From: Sedimentisphaerales bacterium
Lineage (GTDB): Bacteria; Planctomycetota; Phycisphaerae; Sedimentisphaerales; UBA12454
Length of the DNA stretch: 33,231 nucleotides
Direction of reading: 5' to 3'
Assembly: GCA_016930635.1 (NCBI GenBank)
Contig: JAFGGI010000005.1
Coordinates: 1 to 33,231, forward strand
Below, in pieces: positions 15,616 to 33,231 of this stretch. The notes beneath the pieces were generated by a model. The model was not told where the DNA came from. It worked only from the letters and a program-made list of their open reading frames with translations, and did no database searches. Every line of letters begins with the position of its first letter. The first letter of the stretch is position 1. The position numbers were made by a program, and so were the translations under genes.

Positions 15616-15943
15616 AGATATTATCTCCTGTTACAAGGCTACCATCCAGGTAAGCTGATATAAGTTCTTCCGGGTTGCCGGATTGTGCCCCGATGACAAC
15701 TTTAACACCATTTTGTACAAAAAGCTGTTGCGCCCGCTGGCCCATCCCGCCGGCTATGATAACATTTACTCCCATACCACCAAGCCATTGCGGCAGAACT
15801 CCGGGTGCATGGTTAGGAGGTACTTCATTATTTCTGCTGATAATTTTTTTAGTCTCATCACTAACTTCAAATACAGCAAACTGGTCGCAATGACCAAAAT
15901 GCAGACTAAATTGTCCCTGTACTAATGGAATTGCAATACGCAT
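15605..15943 (-). CDS. NifX/NifB-fold (dinitrogenase cofactor biosynthesis family) protein
   Basis: 112 residues. RIAIPLVQGQFSLHFGHCDQFAVFEV at the N-terminus and IIAGGMGQRAQQLFVQNGVKVVIGA in the middle are the marks of the NifX/NafY/ORP fold, which binds Fe-Mo or Mo-Cu-S clusters. A short His/Cys-containing tail (GDNICDH) ends it. It is one of three such proteins in the cluster and sits just downstream of the Mrp ATPase, the same pairing found in ORP-type loci. RBS AGGAG upstream. Confidence 0.88.
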   Translation of the reverse strand: MRIAIPLVQGQFSLHFGHCDQFAVFEVSDETKKIISRNNEVPPNHAPGVLPQWLGGMGVNVIIAGGMGQRAQQLFVQNGVKVVIGAQSGNPEELISAYLDGSLVTGDNICDH

Positions 15944-15970
15944 TTTTTAATCTCCTATAAATTTCGCTTC

Positions 15971-16795
15971 CTAATTAAATTTTAATAATGGCGCCATTGC
16001 TTCTTTAAAAGCCTTGGCTGCCTGGCTCGAACTATAATATTGTATATACGGCCGGCCCGAATCACAGGCTTGTACGACCTGAGGGTCAATCGGTACTCGA
16101 CCCAAAAAAGGCACTTTCATTTGTTCTGCCATTTGCTGACCTCCTCCGGACTTGAAAATGTCCGTTCGCTGACCACATCCTGGACAAACAAAGCCACTCA
16201 TATTTTCAAGTACCCCGATCACAGGCAGATGTAATTGTTCACAAAAGGTAATACATTTGCGAACGTCGGAAAGTGCTACTTCCTGAGGTGTAGTAACTAT
16301 AATCGCACCGTCGGCATTTTCCAGAAGCTGGACGATTGAAAGCGGCTCATCGCCCGTGCCGGGAGGCGAATCAACAATCAGAAAATCCAAATTGCCCCAA
16401 TCTACATCTTTTAAGAATTGCTTTATCATCTGATACTTCATCGGCCCTCTCCAGATAACAGCATCATTGTCTGTCCGCAATAGAAAACCTATAGACATAA
16501 CCTTCAGGTTTTCCGCCATTGTAATCGGTAAAATCACACCTCCTGTCGCCTGGATAGCCTTTCCTTTAAGATTTAGGATCTTCGGAATACTCGGCCCGTG
16601 AATATCAATGTCGAGAAGCCCAACTTTTTTACCCTCAAGAGACAAAGATATCGCAAGATTAGCCGCGACAGTACTTTTACCAACACCGCCTTTGCCGCTA
16701 AGCACAAGTATCCGATGTTTAACCTGCTTTATTCTCTCCCGAATCTGCTCCTGCTCAGCCTGCATTTGCTTTTGTTGTTCCTCATTAAAAGGCAT
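15971..16795 (-). CDS. mrp: Mrp/NBP35-family P-loop ATPase (Fe-S carrier type)
   Basis: 274 residues from ATG 16795, preferred because GGAGG lies 10 bases upstream; the ATG three codons earlier is only one base from it. Deviant Walker A SGKGGVGKST (33-42), DIDIHGPSIP, VDSPPGTGDEP, and the C204-x-x-C207 pair (CPGC) used for bridging Fe-S cluster binding in Mrp/NBP35 proteins. The N-terminal 25 residues are Gln/Glu-rich and helical; the DUF59 domain of some Mrp proteins is absent. Known relatives carry and transfer [4Fe-4S] clusters. Overlaps the upstream MinD-like gene by 11 bp. Confidence 0.9.
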   Translation of the reverse strand: MPFNEEQQKQMQAEQEQIRERIKQVKHRILVLSGKGGVGKSTVAANLAISLSLEGKKVGLLDIDIHGPSIPKILNLKGKAIQATGGVILPITMAENLKVMSIGFLLRTDNDAVIWRGPMKYQMIKQFLKDVDWGNLDFLIVDSPPGTGDEPLSIVQLLENADGAIIVTTPQEVALSDVRKCITFCEQLHLPVIGVLENMSGFVCPGCGQRTDIFKSGGGQQMAEQMKVPFLGRVPIDPQVVQACDSGRPYIQYYSSSQAAKAFKEAMAPLLKFN

Positions 16796-17672
16796 CAGTA
16801 ACATTCCTCCATAAGGTTTTTATATCTTCTGATATTGCTTCATTGGTATACTCGACTACTGAACTCTTCATAACCTGCGCCTTTGTAAAGGCCTTATCAT
16901 AACGTATTCTCCCAACGACTTTAATATCTTTTTTGAGGGCATCTTTTTCGATCTGCTCTGCCATATCAGCGTTTAAATCGAATTTATTAACTGCGACCAT
17001 AGTAGGGATATTGAAGCTGGCAGTTAAATCCGCAACCCTCTCCAAATCATGTTTTCCAGAAAGTGTCGGCTCTGTAACTATCAGTACTAAATCCGCTCCG
17101 GTAATTGAAGCTATCACAGGACAGCCTATACCCGGAGAGCCGTCAACAATAATTAAATCTTTTTTTTGTTCCTCAGCAATTCTTTTTGTTTCCTTGCGAA
17201 TGAGACTGACTAATTTACCGCTGTTTTCCTCTGCAATCCCAAGTTTGGCATGTACCATCGTTCCAAATCTGGTATCCGATATAAACCATTGACCGTTGAT
17301 ACTATCACGAAACTCAATCGCATCAGCCGGGCAAAATTCAACGCACACTTTACAGCCTTCACAGGAAACAGGGTCAATCGTGAAAGTCTTAGCTACAAAA
17401 TCATTTGCCTCGCCGTTACGATGCGGCGCATCAAATCTGCATAAACTCTCACATTTACCGCAACCAAGGCATTTTTCGGTAATAATAGATGCTCGTTTGC
17501 CGCCGGAAAAATCTGAAGTCTGTTTCACATTCGGCTCCAACACAAGATGCAAATCTGCCGCATCAACATCACAATCGGCAAATACAGCATTTTTCGCAAG
17601 TGCCGCAAAAGAGGCCACTATACTTGTCTTACCTGTCCCTCCCTTGCCGCTTATTACAACCAGTTCCTTCAT
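16785..17672 (-). CDS. MinD-type ATPase with inserted 2[4Fe-4S] ferredoxin domain (A)
   Basis: 295 residues. Deviant Walker A SGKGGTGKTS near residue 8, then a ferredoxin insertion with two full CxxCxxCxxxC sets (Cys 68/71/74/78 and 104/107/110/114, CEGCKVCVEFCP), then the ATPase resumes with LIIVDGSPGIGCPVIAS and VAVNKFDLN. This is the MinD/ferredoxin fusion family found in pairs in ORP loci of sulfate reducers and in many anaerobes, thought to couple ATP hydrolysis to cluster assembly or electron flow. A similar protein (B) is encoded at 19243-20091. Weak AGGA RBS. Confidence 0.9.
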   Translation of the reverse strand: MKELVVISGKGGTGKTSIVASFAALAKNAVFADCDVDAADLHLVLEPNVKQTSDFSGGKRASIITEKCLGCGKCESLCRFDAPHRNGEANDFVAKTFTIDPVSCEGCKVCVEFCPADAIEFRDSINGQWFISDTRFGTMVHAKLGIAEENSGKLVSLIRKETKRIAEEQKKDLIIVDGSPGIGCPVIASITGADLVLIVTEPTLSGKHDLERVADLTASFNIPTMVAVNKFDLNADMAEQIEKDALKKDIKVVGRIRYDKAFTKAQVMKSSVVEYTNEAISEDIKTLWRNVTDAF

Positions 17673-17702
17673 TTATATAATCCTAATTACCTAATATTGT
17701 AT

Positions 17703-18263
17703 TTACCTTACGTTCTTACTACGAAAACCTGTTACCCATAGCACTTGCTTGCGCTCAATTTTTCTAATACAAATCTCTTCGAATCCAGCCTTACGAAGAT
17801 AAGCCGTTAATTGCCTGCTGGTATAGTAATCCTCATCCCATAATTTTCGAGCCAATGAGTTACGAGGAAACTCAACAATAATTATTTTACCGCCCGGCCG
17901 TAAAACACGTCGAGCCTGGCGCAAAATCGACTGAGGTTTTTCCATCTCATGCAAAGCCCAAAATATCACCACCGCATCTATCGTTTTGCTTCGAATAAAA
18001 CTAAGCTTGGCCGCATCCTTACGAATATAGCGGATATTTTTAGCATCTTTGCTAACACCTCTTCTTTTAGGAAAACTATTAGAAGAAATGTCCACTCCTG
18101 TAACTTTTTGGTTATAAGTTCTTGATAAATACCGTATAAGTTCACATGCACCGCAACCCAGATCAAGCACACGATAAGCCAAACGCAATTCCTGACCTAT
18201 GCGTTGATGTAAACGCGGCTTAATCTTATCGTAAAAGTTAACTATCGGCTTAGAAACACTCAT
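17703..18263 (-). CDS. Class I SAM-dependent methyltransferase (second of a pair)
   Basis: 186 residues from ATG 18263, chosen for AGGTG six bases upstream; a GTG at 18272 is possible. Motif I VLDLGCGACELIRYL, acidic motif GVDISSNSF, motif IV-like IDAVVIFWALHEMEKP and RVLRPGGKIIIVEFP fit the Methyltransf_11/25 family of small-molecule methyltransferases. Substrate unknown. It follows directly on another methyltransferase gene, to which it is only distantly similar, and precedes MinD/ferredoxin A. Confidence 0.88.
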   Translation of the reverse strand: MSVSKPIVNFYDKIKPRLHQRIGQELRLAYRVLDLGCGACELIRYLSRTYNQKVTGVDISSNSFPKRRGVSKDAKNIRYIRKDAAKLSFIRSKTIDAVVIFWALHEMEKPQSILRQARRVLRPGGKIIIVEFPRNSLARKLWDEDYYTSRQLTAYLRKAGFEEICIRKIERKQVLWVTGFRSKNVR

Positions 18264-18272
18264 CAAAAACAC

Positions 18273-18869
18273 CTAAAACAATTTTGTTCCCTTTATAATG
18301 TAAAGACTCGCTAAATCAATATCCTCGCTTTGGAATATCTGAGTCCCTTTAATACCTAAAAAATATTCAGTTTCGACAAAAAAATATCCTGCAATTACCT
18401 TCTCAATCTCCTTCAAATCCGTGTGTTTAATTCTGTTTACGTAAGAATCAGGCTTTTTTATTCTTTCCTTAAAAAATCCAGACTGCGGATTAAGAAGCAT
18501 AATCAGCAGTTTGCCGGCCGATTTGAGAACACGAGCAGTCTCCTTAACAGCCTGTTTATATCCTTCAATAAATTGAAGAGAGGCTATATAAACAGCTGCA
18601 TCAAAACTGCAATCTGCAAAGTTCATCTTTTCCGCCGAACCTGCTGCTGTTCTTACACTATCCGGCACATGGTCTAAAGCCTCTTCGGAAATATCCAGAC
18701 CGGTAACATTAAAACCATTCTCAGCTAAACCTTTTTCTATAATCGCAGGACCGCAGCCAACACTTAGAATATCCTTAGCTCCTCCCAGCCAGCGCAAAAT
18801 ATAGTCTGACTCCGCCTGGAATACTTCCTTCCAGAAGTCCGACTTACATGATTGTAAATACTTTTCCAT
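18273..18869 (-). CDS. Class I SAM-dependent methyltransferase (first of a pair)
   Basis: 198 residues from ATG 18869; a GTG start at 18914 would add 15 residues and overlap the J-domain gene by 28 bp. No clear RBS decides between them. Motif I ILSVGCGPAIIEKGLAENG, GLDISEEALD, SFDAAVYIASLQFIEGYKQA and RVLKSAGKLLIML place it in the Methyltransf_11 family. The insertion with GFFKERIKKPDSYVNRIKHTD may form the substrate lid. Substrate unknown; the location inside an Fe-S/metal operon is unusual. Confidence 0.85.
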   Translation of the reverse strand: MEKYLQSCKSDFWKEVFQAESDYILRWLGGAKDILSVGCGPAIIEKGLAENGFNVTGLDISEEALDHVPDSVRTAAGSAEKMNFADCSFDAAVYIASLQFIEGYKQAVKETARVLKSAGKLLIMLLNPQSGFFKERIKKPDSYVNRIKHTDLKEIEKVIAGYFFVETEYFLGIKGTQIFQSEDIDLASLYIIKGTKLF

Positions 18870-18886
18870 ATTAATATATTTTGTGC

Positions 18887-19237
18887 TTAACCGAAAAATT
18901 TCTCGCGCCACCACAAAAAGTGGCCCCAGGGGTTATCGAGCTTATATTTCTCGTCTTCAGGAACACCCGGCCAGGAATTTATCTCCTTTAACAACTCAGG
19001 ACAGGGCTTATCCTCCGCCAAAAGTTCATACGCACATTTGACTAAAGTAAATTTTTTATTCGCGTCTGAATCATCTGGGTTTTTATCGGGATGAAATTGC
19101 AACGCAACTCGCCTGTAAGCTTTTTTAAGCTGTTTCTTGTCTATCATTTCATCTACTTCAAGAACCTTACAAGCTATACGACGAGCCTCCAGATCAAGGA
19201 TTATCTTTTTCATAAAGTCAGGGTCATATTTTTTCAT
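18887..19237 (-). CDS. Small J-domain (DnaJ-like) protein
   Basis: 116 residues. The J domain runs from about 23 to 75 with the HPD motif at 49-51 (FHPDKNPDD) that stimulates Hsp70. A short Trp-rich tail ([15 protein letters not shown]) follows; no zinc-finger or client-binding domain is present. Dedicated J proteins such as HscB help hand Fe-S clusters on, so a role with an Hsp70 in cluster delivery is possible but not shown. Preceded by AAAGG and 5 bp after MinD/ferredoxin B. Confidence 0.88.
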
Positions 19238-19242
19238 TTACT

Positions 19243-20091
19243 TTAGCCTTTCAGTACTTTCAAAAGATTTTCATAAAGACTCGCAAATCCTTTGTCATAT
19301 TTGGGCAAAACATCTACAATCATTTTACCAACTGAATAGGCCTCTGCTATTTTTCTGTCGTCCGGCAGCTCAAAAATAATATCTATGTTTTCATCGCGAC
19401 AATACTGATTTATCATTTGCTCATCTGGTTCGCTGCGATTCACTGCAACTGCAAAGGGGATTTTTAATACTCTTACCATTTCAACTGCTAATTTCAGGTC
19501 ATTTAGACCGAACGGCGTAGGTTCGGTTACAAGCAAAACAAAATCTGTAGCTTTTACCGCTTCGATTACCGGACACGACGTCCCCGGCGGAGCATCTATA
19601 ATAACAACACCTTCATTAAAAGCTTTGTCTTTAACTGCTTTTATAACCGATACCGAATGTATGTCACCGATTTTTAGCCGGCCCTGACCGAATTTGACAT
19701 TGTTTGACAAGCCGAAATCGGTAAAACCAACTTCTCTGGGTATTTCCTCAATGGCACCGGTCGGACAGACTCTCATACACCCGCCGCATGAATGACATAA
19801 CTGGTCAAAAACAAGAGCTTTATCTTTCAGGCATATTATAGCGCTGTATTGACAAAGCTGACCGCATTTGCCGCATCCGTTACATTTGTCAATATCAACT
19901 TGAGGTACAGAGATATTAACACTTTGCGTCTGGTTTATTTCAGGCTGCAGAAATATGTGCCCGTTCGGTTCTTCGACATCGCAATCAAGATACTGCACGG
20001 CTTGACCTGTCCGAGCGATCGAACAAGCCAGGTTTATCGCTATTGTCGTTTTACCTGTACCGCCTTTGCCGCTGGCAATTGCTATCTTCAT
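19243..20091 (-). CDS. MinD-type ATPase with inserted 2[4Fe-4S] ferredoxin domain (B)
   Basis: 282 residues from ATG 20091; the frame is open 40 codons further upstream but those codons overlap the 76-residue gene. Deviant Walker A SGKGGTGKTT (7-16), DCDVEEPNGH, ferredoxin insertion with Cys 70/73/76/80 and 99/102/105/109 (CNGCGKCGQLC, CHSCGGCMRVCP), then VIIDAPPGTSCPVIEA and AVNRSEPDE. It has the same architecture as protein A at 16785-17672 but is diverged, so the two probably form a heteromeric pair as in ORP-type loci. Confidence 0.9.
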   Translation of the reverse strand: MKIAIASGKGGTGKTTIAINLACSIARTGQAVQYLDCDVEEPNGHIFLQPEINQTQSVNISVPQVDIDKCNGCGKCGQLCQYSAIICLKDKALVFDQLCHSCGGCMRVCPTGAIEEIPREVGFTDFGLSNNVKFGQGRLKIGDIHSVSVIKAVKDKAFNEGVVIIDAPPGTSCPVIEAVKATDFVLLVTEPTPFGLNDLKLAVEMVRVLKIPFAVAVNRSEPDEQMINQYCRDENIDIIFELPDDRKIAEAYSVGKMIVDVLPKYDKGFASLYENLLKVLKG

Positions 20092-20092
20092 T

Positions 20093-20323
20093 TCAAAGTT
20101 GCTCCATAACCATATCAATCTTGTTCCAATCAAATTTATCTTTTGCGATCCAGCCCTGCTGTGGTAAAGAATCGAAACAAACCGGCTGCGGATTACACCA
20201 CCGATGACCATCGAGAATATCCCATTTCGTGTACCTGTTCATCGGAGAAGCTGTCTTATCTATTCTATAACCTGATGGATGAAATCCGACAGTAACGTCT
20301 TTGACATTAAGCATCGTATCCAT
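20093..20323 (-). CDS. Unrecognised 76-residue protein
   Basis: I do not recognise this family. The gene has CAGGAG at good spacing before its ATG, starts 3 bp after the DUF1847 gene and stops 1 bp before MinD/ferredoxin B (TGA-A-ATG), so it is well embedded and very probably real. The product has no membrane segment and no repeat; it is rich in aromatic residues (HPSGYRID, RYTKWDILDGHRW, GWIAKDKFDW) with two Cys (CNPQPVC). The spacing suggests co-translation with the downstream ATPase. Confidence 0.72.
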   Translation of the reverse strand: MDTMLNVKDVTVGFHPSGYRIDKTASPMNRYTKWDILDGHRWCNPQPVCFDSLPQQGWIAKDKFDWNKIDMVMEQL

Positions 20324-20326
20324 AAT

Positions 20327-20932
20327 TTACTCCTGTTTCATATCTTCATTAAAACGTTTTCGAATATACTTACAGTAAACAGCCGATGCGGGATTATGTG
20401 CTAAAACTCTGTCTTTAGCTATAAGAGTAGTTACCGGAGCATCTGATATTTTAGTAAAAACTGCATCATGGCCGACACAAAGCCCGCATAAAACGTTAAG
20501 TTGAGTCTCTGCGTCATTAAGTATCTGGGCCTGACCAGCCGGGTTACACATAACCTCCTGGTCTTCTGACGAAATCTGAGGCAGGTCAAATTCCTTTTTG
20601 TCAATTCCGCAAACCTTGCAGCAAATTGATACCACATCAAAATGCTTTGAGAGAATTTGCTCAATAACTTTCGCTTCTTCGCTCAAGCCAATACAAAAGG
20701 CCAGGCCTATCCTCTTATAGCCCATCTCCTTAGCAAAGAGTATTATTTCGCCTAATCGTGTTTCTTTTCCATAATAGCGTCCCTCAATCGCTGAGGCAGT
20801 CTTGTGCAATTTCGCTATTAGACTGTCCTGATACAATTGCCTGTGACCATCGGCCTGCGAAAAACAATCCTTGCCGTCACGGCATTTCTTATCTTCGCAT
20901 CGTCCGCAAAGCGGTGATATTTTTTTACTCAC
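20327..20932 (-). CDS. DUF1847 Cys-rich metal-binding protein
   Basis: 201 residues from a GTG with AAAGGA upstream. The Cys pattern (CGRCEDKKCRDGKDC near the N-terminus, CCKVCG in the middle, CNPAGQA, CGLCVGHD) and segments such as RIGLAFCIGL and APVTTLIAKDRVLAHNP match the DUF1847 family of putative metal-binding proteins seen in anaerobes. The function of the family is not established. It is followed after 3 bp by the 76-residue gene. Confidence 0.85.
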   Translation of the reverse strand: MSKKISPLCGRCEDKKCRDGKDCFSQADGHRQLYQDSLIAKLHKTASAIEGRYYGKETRLGEIILFAKEMGYKRIGLAFCIGLSEEAKVIEQILSKHFDVVSICCKVCGIDKKEFDLPQISSEDQEVMCNPAGQAQILNDAETQLNVLCGLCVGHDAVFTKISDAPVTTLIAKDRVLAHNPASAVYCKYIRKRFNEDMKQE

Positions 20933-20953: not shown

Positions 20954-21721
20954 TTATTTACCAATTTTTTTCTGAGCGATTATAACTGCCTCGTTCGGAC
21001 ACTCCGATACACAGGCAGCACAAGCGGTACAGGCCTCATCGTTAACGACTGCTTGTTTACCATCAACTTTAATGGCACCTGTCGGACATACATCAACACA
21101 AATACCGCATCCACCGCATTTTTCATAATCAACAACCGCAACAGCCTTTCGCCCACTTCCAAGCTGGGTTATTCTTTGCTCCAATTGCTGCTTCTGCTTT
21201 TCAAGCATTGCTGCCTGTTGTCTTAGCTCAGCCAATTCCTGTTCGGGACTCTGCTGCCCGGCATTTGGCGCAAAGCCTCCTGAAGCTGCCATACCCATGC
21301 CTCTTCCCATTCCGCGTCCCATTCCCATTCCGCCGCCTCGACCCATTCCACCACCGCCGCCCATACCAAAATGACTGGCTACATTCGGCCCGGCAGCAGA
21401 AGACAAAGAACCTGCCCTGAATTGTTCGACTGCATTACGCACAGATCCACTAACACCAACAATAACCTGAATTCCTGCCTGGCCGAAAACATTAAATGCG
21501 TTAGGGCCGCAGTTGCCGGTCAATACTGTTGTTACTCCCTTTTGTGACATCAACTGAGCCGACTGAATACCGGCACCACCGCCGAGAGCGATATTGGGAT
21601 TCTCCATAGGTTCACACTGCATTGTATCAGTATCAATAATCAAAAAATATGCACATCGACCAAAACGAGCCTCTACATTATCATCCAGCCCGGGGCCTGT
21701 AGACGTTACTGCAATTTTCAT
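20954..21721 (-). CDS. NifX-fold protein fused to a 2[4Fe-4S] ferredoxin via a Met/Gly linker
   Basis: 255 residues, three parts. Residues 1-118 are a NifX/ORP-type domain (MKIAVTSTGPGLDDNVEARFGR, VLTGNCGPNAFNVFGQAGI). Residues 119-147 are a Gly/Met/Arg-rich linker (GMGMGRGMGRGMGM), followed by a coiled-coil segment (about 158-188). Residues 195-250 hold a ferredoxin with Cys 202/205/208/212 and 231/234/237/241. A NifX domain tied to two [4Fe-4S] clusters could link cofactor binding to electron transfer; the Met-rich linker could bind soft metals such as Cu(I), but this is a guess. RBS AAAGG upstream. Confidence 0.88.
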   Translation of the reverse strand: MKIAVTSTGPGLDDNVEARFGRCAYFLIIDTDTMQCEPMENPNIALGGGAGIQSAQLMSQKGVTTVLTGNCGPNAFNVFGQAGIQVIVGVSGSVRNAVEQFRAGSLSSAAGPNVASHFGMGGGGGMGRGGGMGMGRGMGRGMGMAASGGFAPNAGQQSPEQELAELRQQAAMLEKQKQQLEQRITQLGSGRKAVAVVDYEKCGGCGICVDVCPTGAIKVDGKQAVVNDEACTACAACVSECPNEAVIIAQKKIGK

Positions 21722-21968: not shown

Positions 21969-23666
21969 TTATAATCCGGTACAAAATTCTTCTTTTAATT
22001 GTTCCACCGTTTGAGCTTCGAATAATTTTTCAGCAGTCTGTGCCAAATAAGTGCTGTATCCGCCTGACAGGCTTTTCGTATCGAATCCTTTCTGCCGCAG
22101 AATTCTGGAAGCTATATAGCTGCGAATTCCTACAGCACAGGACAGATTAATCACTTTGTCTTTCGGCAACTCATCCAATCTGTCTCGAAGCTCATCAATG
22201 GGTATATTTATCGCGCCGGGTATCGAACCTCTGGCAATCTCAATGCCCCGGCGAACATCCACTATAAAGTCTTCACTGTCAAGTTTATCATAATGCTGAA
22301 CATCGAATGTGCCGTCAAGTATATTACCGCCTACAAAACCTGCCATATTTACAACATCTTTTCCGCTGCCGTAAGGAGGAGCATAAGCAAGTTCCAGATC
22401 CTGAATATCAAAAACAGTCATACCTGCACGAATCGCGGTCGCGAAAACATCAATTCGTTTATCAACACCATCACTGCCGATGATTTGAACGCCCAGAATT
22501 TTACCTTCAGGCTTTGTGAACAAAAGTTTTATATGCATCTGTTTAGCACCGGGATAATAACCTACGTGATGGGCTGGGTGTATATATAGTCTTTCATAAT
22601 TTATATCCGTTTTTTTCAAAGCCTTTTCACTAACGCCGGTCATTGCAGCGACTAAGTCAAATACCTTTAAAATAGCTGTACCCTGAGTACCTTTGTACTT
22701 TACACTCCTGCCGCATAAGTTATCCGCCGCTATTCTTCCCTGTCTGTTTGCCGGCCCGGCAAGAGGTATCAAAGTATCAGTGCCAAGCACAAAATCTTTT
22801 ACTTCAATAACATCGCCTACCGCATAAATATCCGTATCGCTTGTTTGAAGATATTCATTTACTTTTATACCTCCGCGATTACCAATTTCCAAACCAGATT
22901 CACGGGCAAGTTTAGCCTCCGGCTTAACACCAATCGAAAGAACCGCAAAATCACAGGCTAATTCCATTCCGGATTTCAAACTGACCATCAACTTTGAGTC
23001 AGTCCGGCTAAAACCGGAAACACCGTCATTCAACCATAGCGCGATACTTTGCTCGTGCAGATGCTGATGCAGAAGGTTGGCCATTTCCTTATCCATAGTC
23101 GGTACAACCTGGTCAACCATTTCGACAATCGCTACCAGTAAACCACGCTTGCGAAGGTTCTCAGCCATTTCTAAGCCTATATACCCCGCCCCGACCACAA
23201 CCGCACGTTTGGGCTTGTGTTTTTCAATAAAATCATTAATCAAATCGGCATCAGGCACATTCCGCAGAGTAAAAATCCGGTCAGAATCAATACCCGGTAT
23301 AGGCGGTTTTGCAGGCCTGGCTCCGGGCGACAAAATTAATTTGTCGTAACTTTCAAAATACTTTTCTCCCGTAGCTAAATTTACTACTTCAACCTTCTTC
23401 TCGTCTCTGTTAATGCTTAAAACTTCATTTTCCGTCCTTACATCAACATTAAAACGAGCTTTAAATCTCTTCGGCGTTTGAAGAAGCAGTCTTTCACGCT
23501 TCTCTATGGTACCTCCCACATAATAGGGAAGACCGCAATTCGCAAAAGAGATATACTCACCCCGTTCAAACAGAATTATCTCTGCTTGTTCATCTAATCG
23601 GCGCAACCTGGCTCCAGCGGATGCACCGCCGGCCACTCCGCCGACAATCAAAACCTTTTTAGCCAT
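21969..23666 (-). CDS. CoA-disulfide reductase with C-terminal rhodanese domain
   Basis: 565 residues. N-terminal FAD motif VLIVGGVAGGASAGARLRRL, active Cys44 in SFANCGLPYY, NAD motif AVVVGAGYIGLEMAENL, DIYAVGDVIEV, dimerisation domain with IHPAHHVGYYPGAKQ, then a rhodanese domain (about 465-555) with catalytic Cys510 (LSCAVGIRSY). This is the CoADR-Rhd architecture. Characterised relatives reduce CoA disulfide, CoA persulfide or polysulfide with NADH, the rhodanese handling sulfane sulfur. In this cluster it could supply reduced sulfur for cluster building. All key residues are present. RBS AGGAAG. Confidence 0.93.
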   Translation of the reverse strand: MAKKVLIVGGVAGGASAGARLRRLDEQAEIILFERGEYISFANCGLPYYVGGTIEKRERLLLQTPKRFKARFNVDVRTENEVLSINRDEKKVEVVNLATGEKYFESYDKLILSPGARPAKPPIPGIDSDRIFTLRNVPDADLINDFIEKHKPKRAVVVGAGYIGLEMAENLRKRGLLVAIVEMVDQVVPTMDKEMANLLHQHLHEQSIALWLNDGVSGFSRTDSKLMVSLKSGMELACDFAVLSIGVKPEAKLARESGLEIGNRGGIKVNEYLQTSDTDIYAVGDVIEVKDFVLGTDTLIPLAGPANRQGRIAADNLCGRSVKYKGTQGTAILKVFDLVAAMTGVSEKALKKTDINYERLYIHPAHHVGYYPGAKQMHIKLLFTKPEGKILGVQIIGSDGVDKRIDVFATAIRAGMTVFDIQDLELAYAPPYGSGKDVVNMAGFVGGNILDGTFDVQHYDKLDSEDFIVDVRRGIEIARGSIPGAINIPIDELRDRLDELPKDKVINLSCAVGIRSYIASRILRQKGFDTKSLSGGYSTYLAQTAEKLFEAQTVEQLKEEFCTGL

Positions 23667-23712: not shown

Positions 23713-24114
23713 TTATTTGCTTTCTACCTGGTTTTCGAGCTCTTCGATCCGCTTCTTGATACCGTCAAGAGCATCTTCGAAATATTCTGCCTGGCCTTTT
23801 AAACTATCAAGCTCCTGCTGAGGTGCAATCGCTCCGGCATACGGCGCAGCACCATAAGCATACGGATTTACTGCAGCACCATAAGCATATGGATTTACTC
23901 CAAAGCCGTATCCTGCTCCTGCCCAGCCTAAACCTCGGCCAAAACCTCGACCAAAGCCTCGGCCTCGGCCAAAACCTCGGCCAAAGCCCCTGCCCATACC
24001 AAAGCCGCCAACAGGGTTAGCATAACCCGGTACCGGATAACCTGCACAAAAACCAGCAGCTCTACCTGTCATTGGTCCCATACCAGCAGGACCTGTTCCA
24101 TCACCACGTGGCAT
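23713..24114 (-). CDS. DUF5320-like Gly/Arg-rich protein with coiled-coil tail
   Basis: 133 residues. It begins MPRGDGTGPAGMGPMTGR followed by FCAGYPVPGYANPVGG, typical of DUF5320 proteins, then repeated GFGRG units, a tandem VNPYAYGAA pair, and a C-terminal coiled coil (about 98-130). Such proteins accompany NifX-fold proteins in many anaerobes; their function is unknown. The tail resembles the coil of the NifX/ferredoxin protein. RBS GAAAGGAG at good spacing. Confidence 0.82.
   Translation of the reverse strand: MPRGDGTGPAGMGPMTGRAAGFCAGYPVPGYANPVGGFGMGRGFGRGFGRGRGFGRGFGRGLGWAGAGYGFGVNPYAYGAAVNPYAYGAAPYAGAIAPQQELDSLKGQAEYFEDALDGIKKRIEELENQVESK
23846..23899. repeat. Tandem 27-bp repeat (two copies)
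   Basis: Copies at 23846-23872 and 23873-23899 differ by one base (GCAGCACCATAAGCATA-C/T-GG...). Each encodes nine residues on the minus strand (VNPYAYGAA). A recent in-frame duplication within the DUF5320-like gene. Confidence 0.9.
23925..23997. repeat. Low-complexity GFGRG-coding repeat
   Basis: Short units of the form CCTCGGCCAAAA / CCTCGACCAAAG repeat imperfectly and encode GFGRG/GRGFGRGFG on the minus strand. Likely expands and contracts by slippage; not a CRISPR, because there are no unique spacers. Confidence 0.8.
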
Positions 24115-24138: not shown

Positions 24139-24384
24139 TTAACTTCTTGTCATTCTTGTCCCGCATTTGGGACACACTTTCTGGTTACAGGGTTGCCCGG
24201 CAGTATGAGGAGCTGTTGTGCCGCAGTTCGGACATACACAATTTCCGCCCGGCCCCGCAGCAAACGGTCCGCCCATTCTGCCTCTACCCTGGCCCTGGCC
24301 TCTACCCTGACCCTGGCCGCGACCTAAGCCTCTGCCCGATCCCGGTCCTTGGCCACTCGGCCCTGTTCCATCACCTCTTGGCAT
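24139..24384 (-). CDS. Small protein: DUF5320-type N-terminus plus zinc ribbon
   Basis: 81 residues from ATG 24384, chosen because AAAGG lies nine bases upstream; the ATG three codons earlier abuts it. It starts MPRGDGTGPSGQGPGSGR, continues with Gly/Gln/Arg repeats (GRGQGQGRG), and ends in a zinc ribbon (CVCPNCG ... CNQKVCPKCGTRM). Thus the N-terminal leader of its neighbours is joined here to a metal-binding domain. Function unknown. Confidence 0.8.
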   Translation of the reverse strand: MPRGDGTGPSGQGPGSGRGLGRGQGQGRGQGQGRGRMGGPFAAGPGGNCVCPNCGTTAPHTAGQPCNQKVCPKCGTRMTRS

Positions 24385-24437
24385 AACAACCATCCTTTCT
24401 GCAACTTATCCCTTAGGGACTATTTGCTAATTTAAAT

Positions 24438-24680
24438 CTACCACCAATAACCAAACCTGCCTATACCACGACCCAAACCCCAGTAAAAATAAGGATTAGC
24501 CCGGCCGGGATAAGGCATCCTGAAATTATTAACTTTTCGGCTAATGGGCCTGCCTTGCAGTCCCGCCAAACCCTCTACCTGTCCGGGATTTTCTTTGGAG
24601 CTTTTCAAAACACAAAAACCCCGACCTCTTCCCGTCATCGGGCCCTGACCTAACGGCCCTGTACCATCAAAACCCGGCAT
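24438..24680 (-). CDS. Small DUF5320-type protein
   Basis: 80 residues with a strong RBS (AAGGAGG). It opens with MPGFDGTGPLGQGPMTGRGR and GFC, the same leader as the next two genes, but the rest is different: a central polar part and an aromatic/Gly-rich tail (NPYFYWGLGRGIGRFGYWW). No membrane segment. Function unknown; first of three tandem members. Confidence 0.8.
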   Translation of the reverse strand: MPGFDGTGPLGQGPMTGRGRGFCVLKSSKENPGQVEGLAGLQGRPISRKVNNFRMPYPGRANPYFYWGLGRGIGRFGYWW

Positions 24681-25108: not shown

Positions 25109-25477
25109 TTACCGGCCCCTGCCGCCGCGCCATCGCCGTCCGCCCCGATAGCCCATTGGGAAACCCTGCGGCATTTGCGGCAAAGCAGCACTTGCAACGG
25201 GGCCTCCTTCGATAGATATTGCTTTGCCTTCAGTTAATGCCTGGGCAATCTTTTTTCTGGCACTGGCATAAACACGAGTTACCGTCGGCCTGGATACACC
25301 CATTAACTGAGCAACCTTTTCCTGATCGAGTCCTTCGTAATCAAGCAGGCGTATTGTTTCGAACTCATCCAGTCCGAGAATAAGCCATTCCAGAGTTCTT
25401 GCAGGAATACCGGCCGGCTTATAAACAACTGAGCCGGGCTGGCCCCCAATAAAACGGTTTTTAAATGGTCTCGGCAT
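25109..25477 (-). CDS. DUF134 helix-turn-helix protein (probable regulator)
   Basis: 122 residues from ATG 25477 (MPRPFKNRFIGG), matching the family's usual start; an in-frame ATG at 25504 lies inside the palindrome and is less likely. A sigma-70 region 4-like HTH is visible at about 50-80 (LDQEKVAQLMGVSRPTVTRVYASARKKIAQAL), preceded by LGLDEFETIRLLDYEGL. The C-terminus is Gly/Arg-rich (GYRGGRRWRGGRGR), echoing its neighbours. DUF134 genes are usually found with NifX-type genes. It is the first gene of the cluster, with a palindrome over its promoter, so autoregulation is likely. There is no Shine-Dalgarno sequence upstream. Confidence 0.87.
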   Translation of the reverse strand: MPRPFKNRFIGGQPGSVVYKPAGIPARTLEWLILGLDEFETIRLLDYEGLDQEKVAQLMGVSRPTVTRVYASARKKIAQALTEGKAISIEGGPVASAALPQMPQGFPMGYRGGRRWRGGRGR

Positions 25478-25483
25478 ATTATA

Positions 25484-25505
25484 ATTATACCATATTATGA
25501 ACATA
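25484..25505 (-). promoter_or_regulatory. Predicted promoter of the DUF134-led cluster
   Basis: On the minus strand the -10 TATAAT (25489-25484) is a perfect match; a -35-like TGAACA lies inside the palindrome about 16 bp upstream. The start point would then fall about at the DUF134 ATG, which implies a leaderless message. Confidence 0.5.
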
Positions 25506-25516
25506 TGTTCATAATA
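25493..25516. promoter_or_regulatory. 24-bp perfect palindrome, probable operator
   Basis: Each half is TATTATGAACAT and its reverse complement follows with no spacer, so all 24 bases are symmetric. It overlaps the -35/spacer region of the predicted DUF134 promoter, the position expected for a repressor site. The DUF134 HTH protein is the obvious candidate to bind it. Confidence 0.8.
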
Positions 25517-25709: not shown

Positions 25710-28700
25710 CTATTCATTCATCCAGTTTTCCGCCATTAATGCAAAGTCAAGAGCATTGACAATTCCATCACCAAGCGGTGGAGGTGCTATATCTGACTGA
25801 GGATCAAAGTCCAGCCAATAGAGCGAAAGCCTCCACAAATCCTCCATATTGACAAGCCCGTCATTGGTCACATCTCCAAAAACAGGTTCCAGTACTAAAT
25901 GATTCGAATGCATATTCGTAGTATAGGTAATAGATGTTCCCATCAGGGTAAAAGTGGCTCGCCAGCTTATTAAAGCAACATCAATCGGTGTTAATGTATT
26001 AACCCGAATTGTAAACGTATCATCACTAACAGCAGAGGAATGTGCATCTATAGACAAAAATTCAACAAGAGAATCTATCAGGACTACATTAGCAGGAGTA
26101 TCAATTAATTCCACCTGTACATCAACCAGGTTTACATCACCATCGTTATACAGGGTCATAGTATAGGCATAATCAAATTCTGTACGGCCAACACGTACCT
26201 TGCTTACAAGATTGTACGACTGTAAAACAAGGTCTCCATTGGAAGTAGCCTCTTGTGTATTTCCGTATGCTCCCATATTAATTCTTCCGCCATCAGGCTC
26301 AGGTTCCAAAGAGAAATCAGAATTCGGATCGCCGGCATCGATGCAGGGTGAATAAGGTGCCAGATGATAGTCGCCATTCACAGCATCAGCAAAACACGGG
26401 TCTTCATCTATATTTCCTACACCGCCAAAGCCGCCGAAAATATCACTGTAAGCTGCTGCAACAGTCGAACAGCCCTCGATATAAATTTCATTGCCGTCAT
26501 TTTCCAGGATACAGTTAATAATTGTTGCTGTGCCGCAGTTGCTGTCCGATACGCAGCTAAGTGCCCTGCCATCGGCTGAGTTGTTGTCAACTATCGTACA
26601 GTTAACCAGATACGGACTGCTGCCGTCACAAAATACTGCACCGCCAAGACCGCCACCAGCCATACCGCCTGTAAGAATACATTGCTCTATAGTGGGCCAG
26701 GCCTGATGCAGATACAGCAAACCTCCATCGCCCGGAACAGAGCCGTTTTGCATCGTAAAGCCCCTGATTAAACAATTAGGATCACTGATGTCGTGCAGAT
26801 AAAATGCCCGGCCGGCGCCTTCACAATCGATTGTGGTTACTGTGGGCCCATCTAGACTCTGCAGTGATATGATCTTATCAATACTTATATCCCGATTGCC
26901 GGGACCGGTATATACACCCGCCAAAACAAATATATTGCAATCGTCTATTGACGAATTGACTGCTGATTGAATCCTGCTGAATGGATATTGCATTGTGCCG
27001 TTCTCCATACCGGAGATATTGTTTACATCAACATATATCGTCACAGACTGGAACAACTCAAAGGCGTCAACAGCAGCACAGTTAACATCATCAGCACGTA
27101 CAACATCAACATCAAGAAAAGCTGGGGAAGCTAAACCGAAAGGAACCCTGCAGAAAATCTCACTATTCTGCCACGAAACAAGCTCGTCAGTCGCCAACAC
27201 ATCGAAGAAAACATTGCCGCTAACATCGCCGAAGTTATCTCCTGAAATCCTCACATAACTTCCCGCCGGTCCGCTATCAGGCGTAACAGCCGATATAGCA
27301 GGTACAGTAACGGGTATCAGTTCGAATTCAACTACTACTGTTTTATTTTCAGTTATAGTAACAGTATTGATGTTCGTATCAAAAGCAGGAACATTATCAG
27401 CGTCGGTCCATGATTTGACCCTGTAACCGTCCTGCGGATAAGCAGTCAGTACCACAATAGTACCTTCATCATAAACGCCGCCGTCCGGCTGGACATCGCC
27501 GTTACCGATTATCTGGACATCTAACTCATATGTATCCGGCGGCAAAGGCTCAAACCCAACAGAAACAGTTTTGTGGGAATTCATCGTTACAATATTTGAG
27601 TTGTTTCCAGTTGCAGGTGCATAATCGGCTCCGCTCCAATACTTAACACGATAGCCGGAATTTGGATAAGCGTTCAATAAAACCACTGTCCCGGCTTCAT
27701 ATTCGCCGCTGACATCAGAAACCGTACCATTACTATCATCAGCAGATACCGTAAGCGTATACATAATCCTTGTATAAACACCGCTCGCTGCTGTTGTCTG
27801 ATAAGCTTCAATAATTACTTCCTGCCCGTTAGGTTCATTCCAGCCTTCAACAGAGGCAAACGTCAGCGAATGTGTCCCTGTTGCCAATCCTGTTACGACA
27901 TCGCCGCTGTCATACTGAATCGGGCTTCCATCGATTTGCCAGTAAGCACCATCATCAATCGCCGCCTGCGGCTCTATTGTTACAACCAATGAGCCGACCG
28001 GTGCTGCTGCCGGCAAATAGGATGCCGACAATTCCTGCGTATAACCTGCAGTAATAAGAACATCTCCAGATGCAGGTGCTATCCAATCATTAATCTCTTT
28101 AAATGAGACTGTGTGAATGCCGCTGGAAATCCCGTCGAGAATATCATTACTGTCCATCCAGCTGCCGTCATCAAGCTTCCACTGAGCACCTGCAGCAACT
28201 GCTTCGGTTGGGCTAAGCACAACTCTCAGAGAACCATGTATCGGCTCATGACCGAAAATAAGTGTATAAGAACCGCTGCCTGCATAGTCAAATATGTGAA
28301 TAAGTCTTTCATTATAAGGTTCCTCGTCTTGTTCTCTGATAACGCGATTCGTTACCCAGGCATTATAACCTGTTAATATAGGTTTGCTGTCGGAACGAGT
28401 CGCAGAGACAAGATAGAATCCGTCTTCAACCGGGTTCGGCACCCTTATATAATTCCAACCTGAACCCACAGAGGCAGAAAGCTCAACTGTTACCGTGGTC
28501 GGTTGCTCGTTAACGTCAAGAACCATACCGGCAAATACATCAACCGGTTCGATCGTACCATCATCGAGATAAAGTGTATCAGGCATACCATTGGCGTCAT
28601 TTATGTCGTTGACAAGAAAATCAACGATATTGTTGTCGGCCGGATAATCAGCACGAACAACATGAATAAGCTCGTGAACATTAATACCGCTTATCAGAGA

Positions 28701-31700
28701 CAGCCTTGGGTCGCCCAGTGGATCCACATGCTCAAACGAAGCATTGTAGGATGTAAACTCTCCCTGCAGTGATGATACCATTAACCACCTTGCCACCGCA
28801 GTTGAATATGGCGCGATATCACCCAGATCAACTGTGAGCGATGGTGTCATTTCAGCACTGCCCACCTGTGTTCCTATCAGCGAAAAGTCAACCAGTATGT
28901 CTTTGTCTTCCTCATGCCTGATAATTTGCGGTTGTGCCGAGGCTATCGTAACATCATAAGCTGCACCGGCTCCGTTATTGCTCATTATCAAACCGAGCGA
29001 GAAAGGTTCATTCGGCTCGATAACCTCCTCGGTAAACGGATCATCGGCGTAAACCTCCTTCTGATAGAAATAGTCAAGAACAAGATTGGCATCAGGTGTA
29101 ACCGTTATCTTATCAGGCAATAGTGGCAGAATTACTTCAAGACCATCTATACTATAAATAATCTGCCCACCGATATAATAATCAACCGGCTCGAGCGGTG
29201 CGGCCTGAGAAGTCGGCAGAATGATCCACTCTGCCTTCATATTGCTGCCGCCTGGCAAATCTGCTGTACCATCAACTGCAGATATTCCACTGAGAGTCGG
29301 AGGATAAATACCAAATAAATCACTTGAATCATTGCCGTTGGCATCTTCAATATCAATAACAACCAGAAGATTATCAAGCGAAGATTCACCCTGGTTGGTC
29401 AGATCAAGCACAGCCTCAAAGGCAGAACGGCTCATCACAGCCTCCTGTGTTACTTCAAGAGCAACTTTTGCACAAACACCTTCACTCGGACTGCTTAGCG
29501 CCACTTCAAGATCTTCCAGTGCAGAATCAACACCATCTAAAATATCTGTAAATCCGTCATCAATACACTCTTGTGCGGAATCTGCAGCCATTTCCCAATT
29601 TGACTGATATACATCGGCACCGATAAAATCAGGATTAGCATTTGGATCAAGATCAGATGCTGTAAATACTCCCGTCTCCCAGTAATCCAGCGTTCTGTTC
29701 CATCTTTCGCAGGTATTATTTACATCAGCAATAGTCATATTGCTCGGGATCGGCATCACAAACATAGCCGCTTTTTCATCTTCGCTTATCCACTCGTTGG
29801 CGTCACCTGCAGCATCGATAGCCAGCGAAAATGCTTCAATCAGATCAGCCTGTATACCGCTCTCGCAGGGATCTACGCTGAACCAGGCGGGGTCTCCAAA
29901 AATATCCGTTATAGCTTCCATTATATTCTGGAGCCTGGCACCCTGTTCCTTTAGAACTTCGGCTGCATATTCAGGATCCGGCGGCATATCTGTTGAATAA
30001 TAATGATTTATAAGCTGTGAATAATGGGTAACCGCTTCGGCATACGCCGGTGCACTTGAACTGTCACAGGCCGTTGCTATATCAATTACACACCAGATAA
30101 CATTCCACGCTACACCTATTGGAGACAGGTCCTTTACACACGAAGCAACACCACCTACAACAGCGCCGGTGCAATTCTTCAGACAGTTCAGCGACCATAC
30201 GCCGCTGGTGGTACAGCTTGAAGCGCACTCGTATGCACCCTTTACAAGAGTCAATGGACAATTCAGAGGCAAAAAGCTCACAGCACAATTCGCAATGGCA
30301 GCTAACCGTTTGGCCGGACATGGGTCACATGCACTGCCTTCAATGTCAACCTCCGTAAAGTTATAAGTTACGGTTGGATTTCCCGGGCCTGAGCCGCCTC
30401 CGCCACCGCCGCCGCCGCCGACTACACCGCCGCCGCCGCCTTTTTGAGTTGAAGAACCAGTACCGCCGCCCGTGCTGCCAGGCGGTTCATCGTCCCCCCC
30501 GTCATCTTCATCATCTTCATCCTGACCGCCCGGAGTTGGAGGCGGAGGATTCGGTCTTGTAACTTCTTTCACTTTCCTGCCGGGACATACCCAGAATCCG
30601 ACGTAAACAGGAACATAATGCCATTTCTTGTCGTCACCGCATACGATCGTATAGGTAACAGACCCGGTAAAATGCGTGTCGCAATTTTCATCGTCTGACA
30701 CTGTTTCTAAAGCTATCATAGACGACTCCGGCTGCATCGCCGGGTGTTCTGTATCAATAATCATTGCCGGCACAGTAATTGAGGATTGCGGTTCAACCCT
30801 GCCGTTATAATCGGTCAGAAGAACAACTTCATATCTCGAATCTTCCTCGAACTCGAGATGTGCTTCCTCGGCTGCAACGAGACCGTGGTTCGTTATAACA
30901 AAATTGACCTGCATCATACCATTCTGCAGCTGAGCAAGATCTACTCTGGCCGGGCTGATCGTAATTACCGGCGCAGGCACACTCGTCTCAAATATCGTAT
31001 TGAGCGTTATATTGTACTTATCCTCTATGACCGTAGGCGTTACGGTCCAGCTATACTTAACAAGCTGACGCGGCATAAACGCCGTGATTTCTGTTTCCGT
31101 ACCAGCCGCTACAAAAACAGTAGCATTATAACTGCCATGATCTTCAGCCGTAATTCGAAGATTATAGTAACCTTCGGTGACATTTTCATTGATCAGTACA
31201 CCGTTGACATCCGTAGTTTCTGCCCAGGCAAGATTTTGTGTTACGACATCACGAAGTGTCATTGAAGCACCTTCCACATTTGGCGCACCTGCCGCATAAA
31301 ATGTGAACTCATCGACTACAGTGATTTCCAAAGTGCCTACCTTGTCACTTATACAGTTGAATTCAAACGGTATAACCTTGTTCACTCCGACACCATAGAC
31401 AATAATAGTACCTGTATACAGGCCAAGCGGTAAATTCTCTGCAGGCTCCAGGGCAAGACCGACTGCGGCAGTCTGACCCGGACCGATCTGCGGAATCTTC
31501 TGCGGCGTTGTCAGACGCAGCCACGGCACCTGAGGTATTAACACATCAAGCTGCCCTGTCGGTGCGCCGCCGGAATTGCTGAGATCGAACTGAAGAAGTT
31601 TCTGCTGTCCTCTGACCATACCTGTCTTCAAAGACTGCGGAGAAACATTAACAACAAAATTAAGAGGAATAACATTCACATTAAGCGTGGTCGAAGCTGT

Positions 31701-33231
31701 CGCTCCCTCATTGCTTGAAAAATTAATTACAACTGTACTGCTCAGTACCGAATCATCCAGCGCGGTAATAGTATAATTTACATCGATTACAGCAAGCTCG
31801 CTCATATTCGGATCATAATCAAGCTGTATATCAAGATTGCCGGCTGCTCCGTTCACATCAGCAATTATTCCGCTAAGCGGAACATCCGTCAAATTAGTCA
31901 GTGTTATAGTTCCGCTTACCGGCTGTGACGGGTATAGCCAGATATTTCTGGTCGCAGGTGCACTCCGCATGCCGTAGATCGTGAAACTGTCCTGGTCCGT
32001 TGTATGAACACCATACAGATGACTTGCGCCGATATGATACACCCCTCCCTCGCCCGGCAGAGGCACAAGTGTAGTTGTAAACTGACCGTTCGAATCAGCA
32101 GTCAGAGCTATATTTCTTGAAATACCTTTTACAAGAATATCCACCCTTACCGGTACATTCGGTGCGTTGATATCGGAATCAAGCCAGTAAGCCTGACCTG
32201 ACAGAGTAACAGGCTCCGGTGATACTGCTGTTTCCACACCGGCCCAAACCTCGGCCCCATAGCTTGGCGGTACTTGAAGCTGCCATGCTTCATCATCGCT
32301 GCCGACTTCATTTTCAGCTCTTATCGTAATATTATGTGGACTGCCGGCAACAACAGGATTCGGCCATTGAACCTGACCTGTCGCAGTATTTATCGTCATA
32401 CCCGCAGGGGCTGTAACCAGCGACCACGTTATCGGTGATGCCCCGGCATCAAGAACCGGCAGCGGCCCCAAATAAGGTATCATTTCAATTGCATTATGGT
32501 CTGCAACATCAGCTATTAACGGCTTATCAAGCACGGTAAGCTGCCATGTTTTCGTATCTGTTCCGGCGATATTAGTCGCCCTGACAGTAATATTGTACGG
32601 TGTTGGCAAACTGACAGGACTTGACCAGCTTACAGCGCCGGTTGACGGATTGATAGTCATACCCGCCGGTCCATCGTCAAGACTCCACGACACCTCTGTC
32701 CCGCCAAGAAGAACCGCAGCAGGAGAAGTGAACGGCACGCCGGATGCAATCGTCATATTTGCGATGTCAGCGATAACAGGAGGTTCCACAACCGTTATCT
32801 GCCATGCTTCAGTATCAGAACCAACGATATTTGATGCTTCTATAATGACAGCATATGGTCCGCCGCTTATTACAGTCGGCCAACTGACAACACCGGTAGT
32901 ATTATTTATTGTCATACCTGCCGGTCCGCTTGACAGTGCCCAGTTAATCGGCTCTGCTCCCTGATAAAGGCTCGGCGTCGGACCGGTATATGCCGAACCG
33001 ACAGCTACTGATATATCCGGTATCGGCACAATCAGCGGCAGACGAAGTACCGTCATTTGCCAGCTTTGCTGCGCACTTCCAACTGCATTGGATGCGCGGA
33101 TCGTTATAGTATAGGGACTGGCCACGCCACTGACATTTGCCCACGAGACAACACCCGTAGATGGATTAATTGTCAGACCGCTCGGACCTGAAACAATTGA
33201 CCACGTTATCGGTGCTGTCCCGGCAAGCAGT
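25710..33231 (-). CDS. Partial giant mosaic surface protein with dockerin-like tail (5' end outside window)
   Basis: The frame is open to the window edge; about 2,506 residues are visible. In order from the N-terminal side: at least four putative-Ig (He_PIG-like) repeats of about 85 residues (33230 to about 32280; AGMTINxxTGxVSW), beta-rich Ig-like/CARDB-like domains (to about 30600), an acidic then Gly-rich low-complexity linker (about 30550-30370), a Cys-rich segment (about 30345-30060), helical and beta domains, PEGA-like repeats (about 28240-27770), two InlB-B-type repeats (about 27770-27310), an IPT/TIG domain (about 27310-27060), a right-handed beta-helix (about 27050-26250), a DUF11-like domain and a dockerin-like tail (25900-25713). 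An exported adhesion or polysaccharide-related role is likely; no catalytic domain was recognised. Confidence 0.88.
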   Translation of the reverse strand, partial: LLAGTAPITWSIVSGPSGLTINPSTGVVSWANVSGVASPYTITIRASNAVGSAQQSWQMTVLRLPLIVPIPDISVAVGSAYTGPTPSLYQGAEPINWALSSGPAGMTINNTTGVVSWPTVISGGPYAVIIEASNIVGSDTEAWQITVVEPPVIADIANMTIASGVPFTSPAAVLLGGTEVSWSLDDGPAGMTINPSTGAVSWSSPVSLPTPYNITVRATNIAGTDTKTWQLTVLDKPLIADVADHNAIEMIPYLGPLPVLDAGASPITWSLVTAPAGMTINTATGQVQWPNPVVAGSPHNITIRAENEVGSDDEAWQLQVPPSYGAEVWAGVETAVSPEPVTLSGQAYWLDSDINAPNVPVRVDILVKGISRNIALTADSNGQFTTTLVPLPGEGGVYHIGASHLYGVHTTDQDSFTIYGMRSAPATRNIWLYPSQPVSGTITLTNLTDVPLSGIIADVNGAAGNLDIQLDYDPNMSELAVIDVNYTITALDDSVLSSTVVINFSSNEGATASTTLNVNVIPLNFVVNVSPQSLKTGMVRGQQKLLQFDLSNSGGAPTGQLDVLIPQVPWLRLTTPQKIPQIGPGQTAAVGLALEPAENLPLGLYTGTIIVYGVGVNKVIPFEFNCISDKVGTLEITVVDEFTFYAAGAPNVEGASMTLRDVVTQNLAWAETTDVNGVLINENVTEGYYNLRITAEDHGSYNATVFVAAGTETEITAFMPRQLVKYSWTVTPTVIEDKYNITLNTIFETSVPAPVITISPARVDLAQLQNGMMQVNFVITNHGLVAAEEAHLEFEEDSRYEVVLLTDYNGRVEPQSSITVPAMIIDTEHPAMQPESSMIALETVSDDENCDTHFTGSVTYTIVCGDDKKWHYVPVYVGFWVCPGRKVKEVTRPNPPPPTPGGQDEDDEDDGGDDEPPGSTGGGTGSSTQKGGGGGVVGGGGGGGGGSGPGNPTVTYNFTEVDIEGSACDPCPAKRLAAIANCAVSFLPLNCPLTLVKGAYECASSCTTSGVWSLNCLKNCTGAVVGGVASCVKDLSPIGVAWNVIWCVIDIATACDSSSAPAYAEAVTHYSQLINHYYSTDMPPDPEYAAEVLKEQGARLQNIMEAITDIFGDPAWFSVDPCESGIQADLIEAFSLAIDAAGDANEWISEDEKAAMFVMPIPSNMTIADVNNTCERWNRTLDYWETGVFTASDLDPNANPDFIGADVYQSNWEMAADSAQECIDDGFTDILDGVDSALEDLEVALSSPSEGVCAKVALEVTQEAVMSRSAFEAVLDLTNQGESSLDNLLVVIDIEDANGNDSSDLFGIYPPTLSGISAVDGTADLPGGSNMKAEWIILPTSQAAPLEPVDYYIGGQIIYSIDGLEVILPLLPDKITVTPDANLVLDYFYQKEVYADDPFTEEVIEPNEPFSLGLIMSNNGAGAAYDVTIASAQPQIIRHEEDKDILVDFSLIGTQVGSAEMTPSLTVDLGDIAPYSTAVARWLMVSSLQGEFTSYNASFEHVDPLGDPRLSLISGINVHELIHVVRADYPADNNIVDFLVNDINDANGMPDTLYLDDGTIEPVDVFAGMVLDVNEQPTTVTVELSASVGSGWNYIRVPNPVEDGFYLVSATRSDSKPILTGYNAWVTNRVIREQDEEPYNERLIHIFDYAGSGSYTLIFGHEPIHGSLRVVLSPTEAVAAGAQWKLDDGSWMDSNDILDGISSGIHTVSFKEINDWIAPASGDVLITAGYTQELSASYLPAAAPVGSLVVTIEPQAAIDDGAYWQIDGSPIQYDSGDVVTGLATGTHSLTFASVEGWNEPNGQEVIIEAYQTTAASGVYTRIMYTLTVSADDSNGTVSDVSGEYEAGTVVLLNAYPNSGYRVKYWSGADYAPATGNNSNIVTMNSHKTVSVGFEPLPPDTYELDVQIIGNGDVQPDGGVYDEGTIVVLTAYPQDGYRVKSWTDADNVPAFDTNINTVTITENKTVVVEFELIPVTVPAISAVTPDSGPAGSYVRISGDNFGDVSGNVFFDVLATDELVSWQNSEIFCRVPFGLASPAFLDVDVVRADDVNCAAVDAFELFQSVTIYVDVNNISGMENGTMQYPFSRIQSAVNSSIDDCNIFVLAGVYTGPGNRDISIDKIISLQSLDGPTVTTIDCEGAGRAFYLHDISDPNCLIRGFTMQNGSVPGDGGLLYLHQAWPTIEQCILTGGMAGGGLGGAVFCDGSSPYLVNCTIVDNNSADGRALSCVSDSNCGTATIINCILENDGNEIYIEGCSTVAAAYSDIFGGFGGVGNIDEDPCFADAVNGDYHLAPYSPCIDAGDPNSDFSLEPEPDGGRINMGAYGNTQEATSNGDLVLQSYNLVSKVRVGRTEFDYAYTMTLYNDGDVNLVDVQVELIDTPANVVLIDSLVEFLSIDAHSSAVSDDTFTIRVNTLTPIDVALISWRATFTLMGTSITYTTNMHSNHLVLEPVFGDVTNDGLVNMEDLWRLSLYWLDFDPQSDIAPPPLGDGIVNALDFALMAENWMNE
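32280..33230 (-). repeat. Tandem Ig-like (He_PIG) domain repeats
   Basis: About four consecutive units, each with a WSL/WSI...GPAGMTINxxTGxVSWP core, then NITIRAxNxVGSDxxxWQ, then a linker (VIADIANM, LIADVADH). Units begin near 33230 (partial), 33040, 32790 and 32540. DNA identity between units is moderate, so they are not very recent copies. Confidence 0.8.

Follow-up and report, generated by a model that had tools for sequence, protein, structure and literature searches.

A perfect 24-bp palindrome upstream of a gene encoding a DUF134 protein in a Sedimentisphaerales bacterium is, with a probability of roughly 0.87, the operator of that protein, which would bind it as a dimer, occlude the promoter, and repress its own gene and the adjoining gene cluster until a signal relieves the repression. 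The sequence itself shows that the site exists and is conserved, that it overlaps promoters and goes with operon promoters, and that it matches the DUF134 recognition helix. A previous sequence-only reading had noticed the palindrome and proposed it as a candidate DUF134 target; the observation is right, and the interpretation most probably is as well. An autoregulated helix-turn-helix (HTH) protein is an ordinary kind of system, but in the literature searched the family has no reported target: open-licence papers reported neither a DNA target nor a role for DUF134, nor any operator matching the palindrome strings. The window referred to below is the whole 33,231-nucleotide stretch analysed (contig JAFGGI010000005.1), and the genes and promoter elements described in it lie on the reverse strand.

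The palindrome and the DUF134 gene cluster

The inverted repeat TATTATGAACAT/ATGTTCATAATA, the proposed DUF134 operator, has no spacer and occupies positions 25493-25516 (assigned to neither strand). No other perfect palindrome in the 33-kb window is as long, the runner-up measuring 14 bp. At the local base composition, 12 consecutive pairs have a probability of about 1.8e-7 per position, and a palindrome this long is expected by chance at about 4e-5 per 200-bp promoter region and about 0.006 for the whole window. The range first given, 25484-25516, also takes in a TATAAT box at 25484-25489. No second copy of the 24-mer with up to three mismatches was found in the window or in the 2.45-Mb genome. 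The 20-bp core TTATGAACATATGTTCATAA (25495-25514), which recurs upstream of orthologous DUF134 genes, has two matches with three mismatches in its own genome, both of which look like background.

The DUF134 gene (25109-25477) encodes a protein of 122 amino acids starting with MPRPFKN, a true member of the DUF134/UPF0251 family (PF02001, 86.3 bits against a curated cut-off of 27), whose Pfam matches are confined to DUF134/HTH and weak hits to Sigma70_r4. The conserved MPRP start lies at 25477; the ATG at 25504, inside the palindrome, is not the conserved start. Alignment places the motif SRPTVTR (residues 62-68; 25274-25294) at the beginning of the recognition helix, predicted to span residues 63-83. 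Many DUF134 proteins (e.g., those of L049 and L100) carry a cysteine at position 7 that might serve as a metal or redox site; in the SRPTVTR clade that bears the operator, to which the window protein belongs, this residue is asparagine or aspartate.

About 15 same-strand genes, mostly close-packed, follow DUF134 and form with it a cluster of about 16 genes of Fe-S/NifX/Mrp type. The next gene of the presumed operon, after a gap of 26 bp, encodes a NifX/NafY-like protein (PF02579; 24720-25082). Profile matches then indicate three small Gly-rich DUF5320-type proteins (24438-24680, 24139-24393, and 23713-24114, the second scoring below the Pfam cut-off), a CoA-disulfide-reductase-like flavoprotein with a rhodanese domain (21969-23666), an FmdB-like zinc ribbon protein (PF09723; 21734-21934), and a protein combining a NifX-like domain, a Gly-rich linker, and a 4Fe-4S domain (20954-21721). 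The remainder of the cluster, within 14623-20932, comprises DUF1847, two MinD-ferredoxin ATPases, DnaJ, two methyltransferases, an Mrp/NUBPL ATPase, a NifX/MrpORP-like domain, and a radical SAM protein. NifX-like, DUF5320, MinD-ferredoxin, and Mrp genes also stand beside DUF134 at loci L139-L143, L148, and L152. Directly upstream of the DUF134 promoter lies a very long same-strand gene (25710-33125; 2471 aa listed), whose product contains repeated Ig-like segments followed by a dockerin-like region at its end.

Conservation of the site upstream of DUF134 genes

The nearest relatives of the window organism within its family mostly lack DUF134, and conservation was therefore assessed at the level of the order and beyond. 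Phylogenetic footprinting, the check proposed with the original observation, found the same palindrome upstream of orthologues and variants of it before DUF134 genes in many phyla. In 59 related genomes, DUF134 genes at 66-80% identity are preceded by TTATGAACATA(T/A)GTTCATAA or a near copy, located at -32 to -44 from the start codon, and more distant DUF134 genes have sites that share this frame but differ in their inner bases (TTATGAGCATATGCTCATAA, TTATTGGCATATGCCAATAA, TTATTAGCATATGCTAATAA).

For a wider survey, 80 DUF134 loci from genome contigs and further ones from whole genomes were combined into 151 non-redundant genes, and sites were scored by the frame TTAT-NNN-CATATG-NNN-ATAA only, with a threshold of at least 12 of its 14 bases within 100 bp upstream. 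Such a site precedes 82 of the 151 genes, compared with 0/151 in the reversed control. The named carriers belong to about 17 bacterial phyla, many further carriers being anonymous genomes, and the position of the site varies little (median -41, with quartiles at -45 and -36). In five genomes where DUF134 is distal in its cluster, the site is absent directly before DUF134 and is found 2-8 kb off, ahead of the gene that opens the cluster, as predicted for a regulator of the operon promoter. An exact scan with a strict pattern across 392 genomes of the phylum matched the window site alone; the pattern is strict, and the remaining orthologues that carry an exact site were not part of the sample.

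By the strict criterion, 69 of the 151 genes have no proximal site, some being operon-internal and some near misses (L029, L060, L168, L074). No recognisable operator was found upstream of seven genes with the SRPTVTR helix, mostly from Desulfobacterota (L067, L084, L189, L191, L192, L196, L197), and Asgard DUF134 genes, with SQPTFNR, have no site of the TTAT..CATATG..ATAA form. The archaeal gene L074 carries TTATGAATATAAATTCATAA immediately upstream of its start. Genes without the site may be operon-internal, may have other targets, or may mark a limit of the model. A different palindrome, TGATAAGCTTTTGCTTATCA, was noted at L084.

Additional copies were also observed away from DUF134. Genome G051, whose own DUF134 gene has the operator TTATGAGCATATGCTCATAA, contains two more exact copies of it: one (L146:922-941) just after a gene of Fe-S hydrogenase/NADH-oxidoreductase type and before a PilB-like gene, the other (L147:3529-3548) 47 bp before an AsmA-like gene, and a wider regulon is possible in this genome. 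Exact and near-exact operators of the window type occur in genome G035 (L144:2024-2043 and L145:2691-2710), one located 29 bp before a flavoprotein gene and the other inside an open reading frame; DUF134 was not found in this genome, which is 84% complete.

Promoter overlap and the probable binding protein

In the window, the best promoter-like match upstream of DUF134, of a score that shuffled sequence can also yield, combines a weak -35-like TGAACA within the operator (25511-25506), a 16-bp spacer, and a TATAAT box (25489-25484) extended by TG at 25492-25491. The operator thus overlaps a predicted extended -10 promoter, a reading that appears fair in context and weak if taken alone. The right arm of the operator contains CATAAT (25494-25499), which corresponds to the -10 position in many orthologues; a good -35 box for it was not found in the window. 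A second TATAAT (25483-25478) follows the first, and the two boxes adjoin the DUF134 start codon (TATAATTATAATATG, 25477-25489). No Shine-Dalgarno sequence is evident before the start at 25477. A -10 box at 25489-25484 would place the transcription start near that codon, which suggests a leaderless DUF134 transcript in the window lineage. Several orthologues, unlike the window, have a short leader that includes a purine-rich ribosome site.

The orthologues offer a clearer arrangement. At many loci, aligned on their sites, TTGAC lies 8 bp upstream of the operator and is separated by a 17-bp spacer from a -10 box, YATAAT, made up of right-arm bases and the base that follows the arm. TTGAC occurs 16-18 bp before the right-arm -10 box in 29 of 81 sites (0.3 expected), and at a further 16 loci the promoter -10 overlaps the left arm. 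The proposal that the palindrome covers the -35 box and spacer is plausible for the window but does not describe a conserved placement, since most orthologues with a recognisable promoter have the -10 inside the right or left arm; the window promoter, with its TG-extended TATAAT and weak -35 in the operator, may be a variant of that arrangement. The more general suggestion, that the position fits autorepression, agrees with the many orthologue sites predicted to overlap a well-formed sigma-70 promoter.

We propose that DUF134 binds as a dimer in which the SRPTVTR helix of each of the two subunits enters one TATGAACA half-site. A bound dimer would cover the -10 box and exclude RNA polymerase, and DUF134 would in this way repress the Fe-S/NifX/Mrp-type cluster that runs in the same direction as well as its own gene. 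Position by itself does not fix the sign of regulation, and DUF134 might be an activator or dual regulator: the -35 boxes of the window and of several orthologue promoters are weak, and activators of the MerR type bind palindromes in promoter spacers. The spacers here are of normal length (16-18 bp), however, and in many orthologues the promoter is a strong TTGACA-17 one apart from the operator lying over its consensus -10 (TATAAT/CATAAT), an arrangement that agrees with occlusion; activation or a dual role is improbable, though less so than the other alternatives. Repression by DUF134 would be released by a signal, for which iron or Fe-S status is no more than a reasonable guess, prompted by the storage of iron and sulfur by IssA, which is related to the NifX-like proteins and has a Gly-rich tail (PMC5524996).

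The identity of the binding protein was approached through half-site positions 5-7, which were kept out of the site search and compared with the recognition helix, SRxTzwR. Proteins with SRPT(V/F/L)TR have GAA in 28 of 30 half-sites, those with SRQTFGN have TGG or TAG in 18/18, and those with SRQTFGR and SRPTFGR mostly have GAG, GGG, or AAG. The association amounts to 0.53 bits between helix residue 6 and base 7 and to 0.44 bits between residue 7 and base 5, values reached in none of 2000 permutations, which ignore relatedness. On a tree built without the helix columns, residue 6 changed five times and base 7 six times, residue 7 and base 5 twice each, too few switches for significance to be attainable in an independent-pairs (sign) test. 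Because the half-site varies with the DUF134 helix, this association is strong but not conclusive evidence for DUF134 as the probable binder, and together with the orthologue footprint it sustains the view of the palindrome as a candidate DUF134 target.

A site conserved upstream of a gene need not be bound by the product of that gene, and another regulator, e.g., a global Fe-S or redox regulator, could control DUF134 operons generally; the co-occurrence of the site with DUF134 in unrelated phyla, and specificity bases that vary with the DUF134 helix where the DeoR complex (see below) leads one to expect it, render this quite unlikely. Still less credible is binding by LexA to the palindrome as an SOS box. 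The genome contains a weak LexA-like gene, and the core GAACATATGTTC has the letters of the Gram-positive LexA box, a string present in a review of the SOS response (PMC11442139). We consider this assignment very unlikely: a genome search for GAACATA(T/A)GTTC gave one further exact match, inside the pyruvate phosphate dikinase (PPDK) gene; the box is absent from the examined upstream part of the LexA-like locus; and elsewhere DUF134 operators combine the TTAT..CATATG..ATAA frame with GAG, GGG, TGG, or TAG, none of which gives a LexA box and whose choice follows the DUF134 helix. An RNA hairpin, terminator, transposon end, or chance repeat has a negligible probability: although a 24-bp inverted repeat is able to fold, the absence of both a loop spacer and a T-tract speaks against a terminator or RNA hairpin, the proposed promoters would transcribe part of the palindrome at most, conserved sites can lose symmetry yet keep the DNA frame, and the sequence is unique in its genome, with only about 4e-5 copies expected in the promoter region.

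On balance, we lean towards a broader view of DUF134 proteins as an ancient, cross-phylum group of small DeoR-like autoregulators, in which helix residues 3, 6, and 7 would specify bases 5-7 and the protein would occlude an in-operator -10 of Fe-S/NifX/Mrp-type operons. DUF134 is widespread and still annotated as being of "unknown function"; a candidate operator with predicted specificity would give the family a molecular function, make its regulons predictable from sequence, and connect it with operons that encode NifX-like, Mrp, and DUF5320 proteins, whose part in anaerobic Fe-S metabolism is poorly known. The helix-to-base pattern predicts that T67G would shift recognition to GAG half-sites and R68N to T-containing half-sites.

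Comparison with known systems

The closest known system is Bacillus subtilis DeoR (SorC/DeoR subfamily), the repressor acting at the dra-nupC-pdp operator, with which DUF134 shares a homeodomain-like HTH (SRPTVSR in DeoR, SRPTVTR in DUF134). The DeoR DNA-binding domain is the top PDB sequence match by profile (E 9e-6), and 40 residues of the predicted DUF134 HTH core (pLDDT ~92) superimpose on it at 0.5 Å with 32% identity (Foldseek E 0.23, such values being weak owing to the shortness of the domain). We take the last arginine of SRPTVSR to be R39, by our own count on the known DeoR sequence. In the complex with the operator ATTGAACAAAATTTCAAT, the solved DNA complex nearest to DUF134, R39 contacts G4, in a structure determined at 3.7 Å whose authors urge caution over contacts (PMC11229326). 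When aligned on their dyads, the DeoR operator and the window site have a TGAACA half-site at equal distance, its G lying 5.5 bp from the dyad, and DUF134 proteins with asparagine in place of the R39-equivalent arginine have T in place of the contacted G. In both systems the TGAACA half-site lies at a promoter, and DeoR is a repressor (PMC11229326). Unlike DeoR, the 122-residue DUF134 lacks a C-terminal Rossmann-like sugar-binding effector domain, whereas DeoR is tetrameric, has a longer two-part operator, and controls other genes.

Region 4 of sigma factors, e.g., sigma-E region 4 with -35 DNA (2h27), has the same HTH fold, scoring equal to the DeoR domain in Foldseek, in keeping with the weak Sigma70_r4 matches; DUF134, in contrast, is a small stand-alone protein with a predicted symmetric operator rather than a -35 element. 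The Gram-positive LexA/SOS box shares its core with the window operator but differs in that DUF134 sites keep TTAT/ATAA flanks, their specificity bases vary with DUF134, and no association with SOS genes was seen among the exact core matches in the genome or in the examined part of the LexA-like locus. IssA/MrpORP iron-sulfur proteins have in common with the operon partners in the window the NifX-like domain and, in one case, a Gly-rich stretch (PMC5524996); proteins of this type are possible targets of the regulation and not a comparable operator system.
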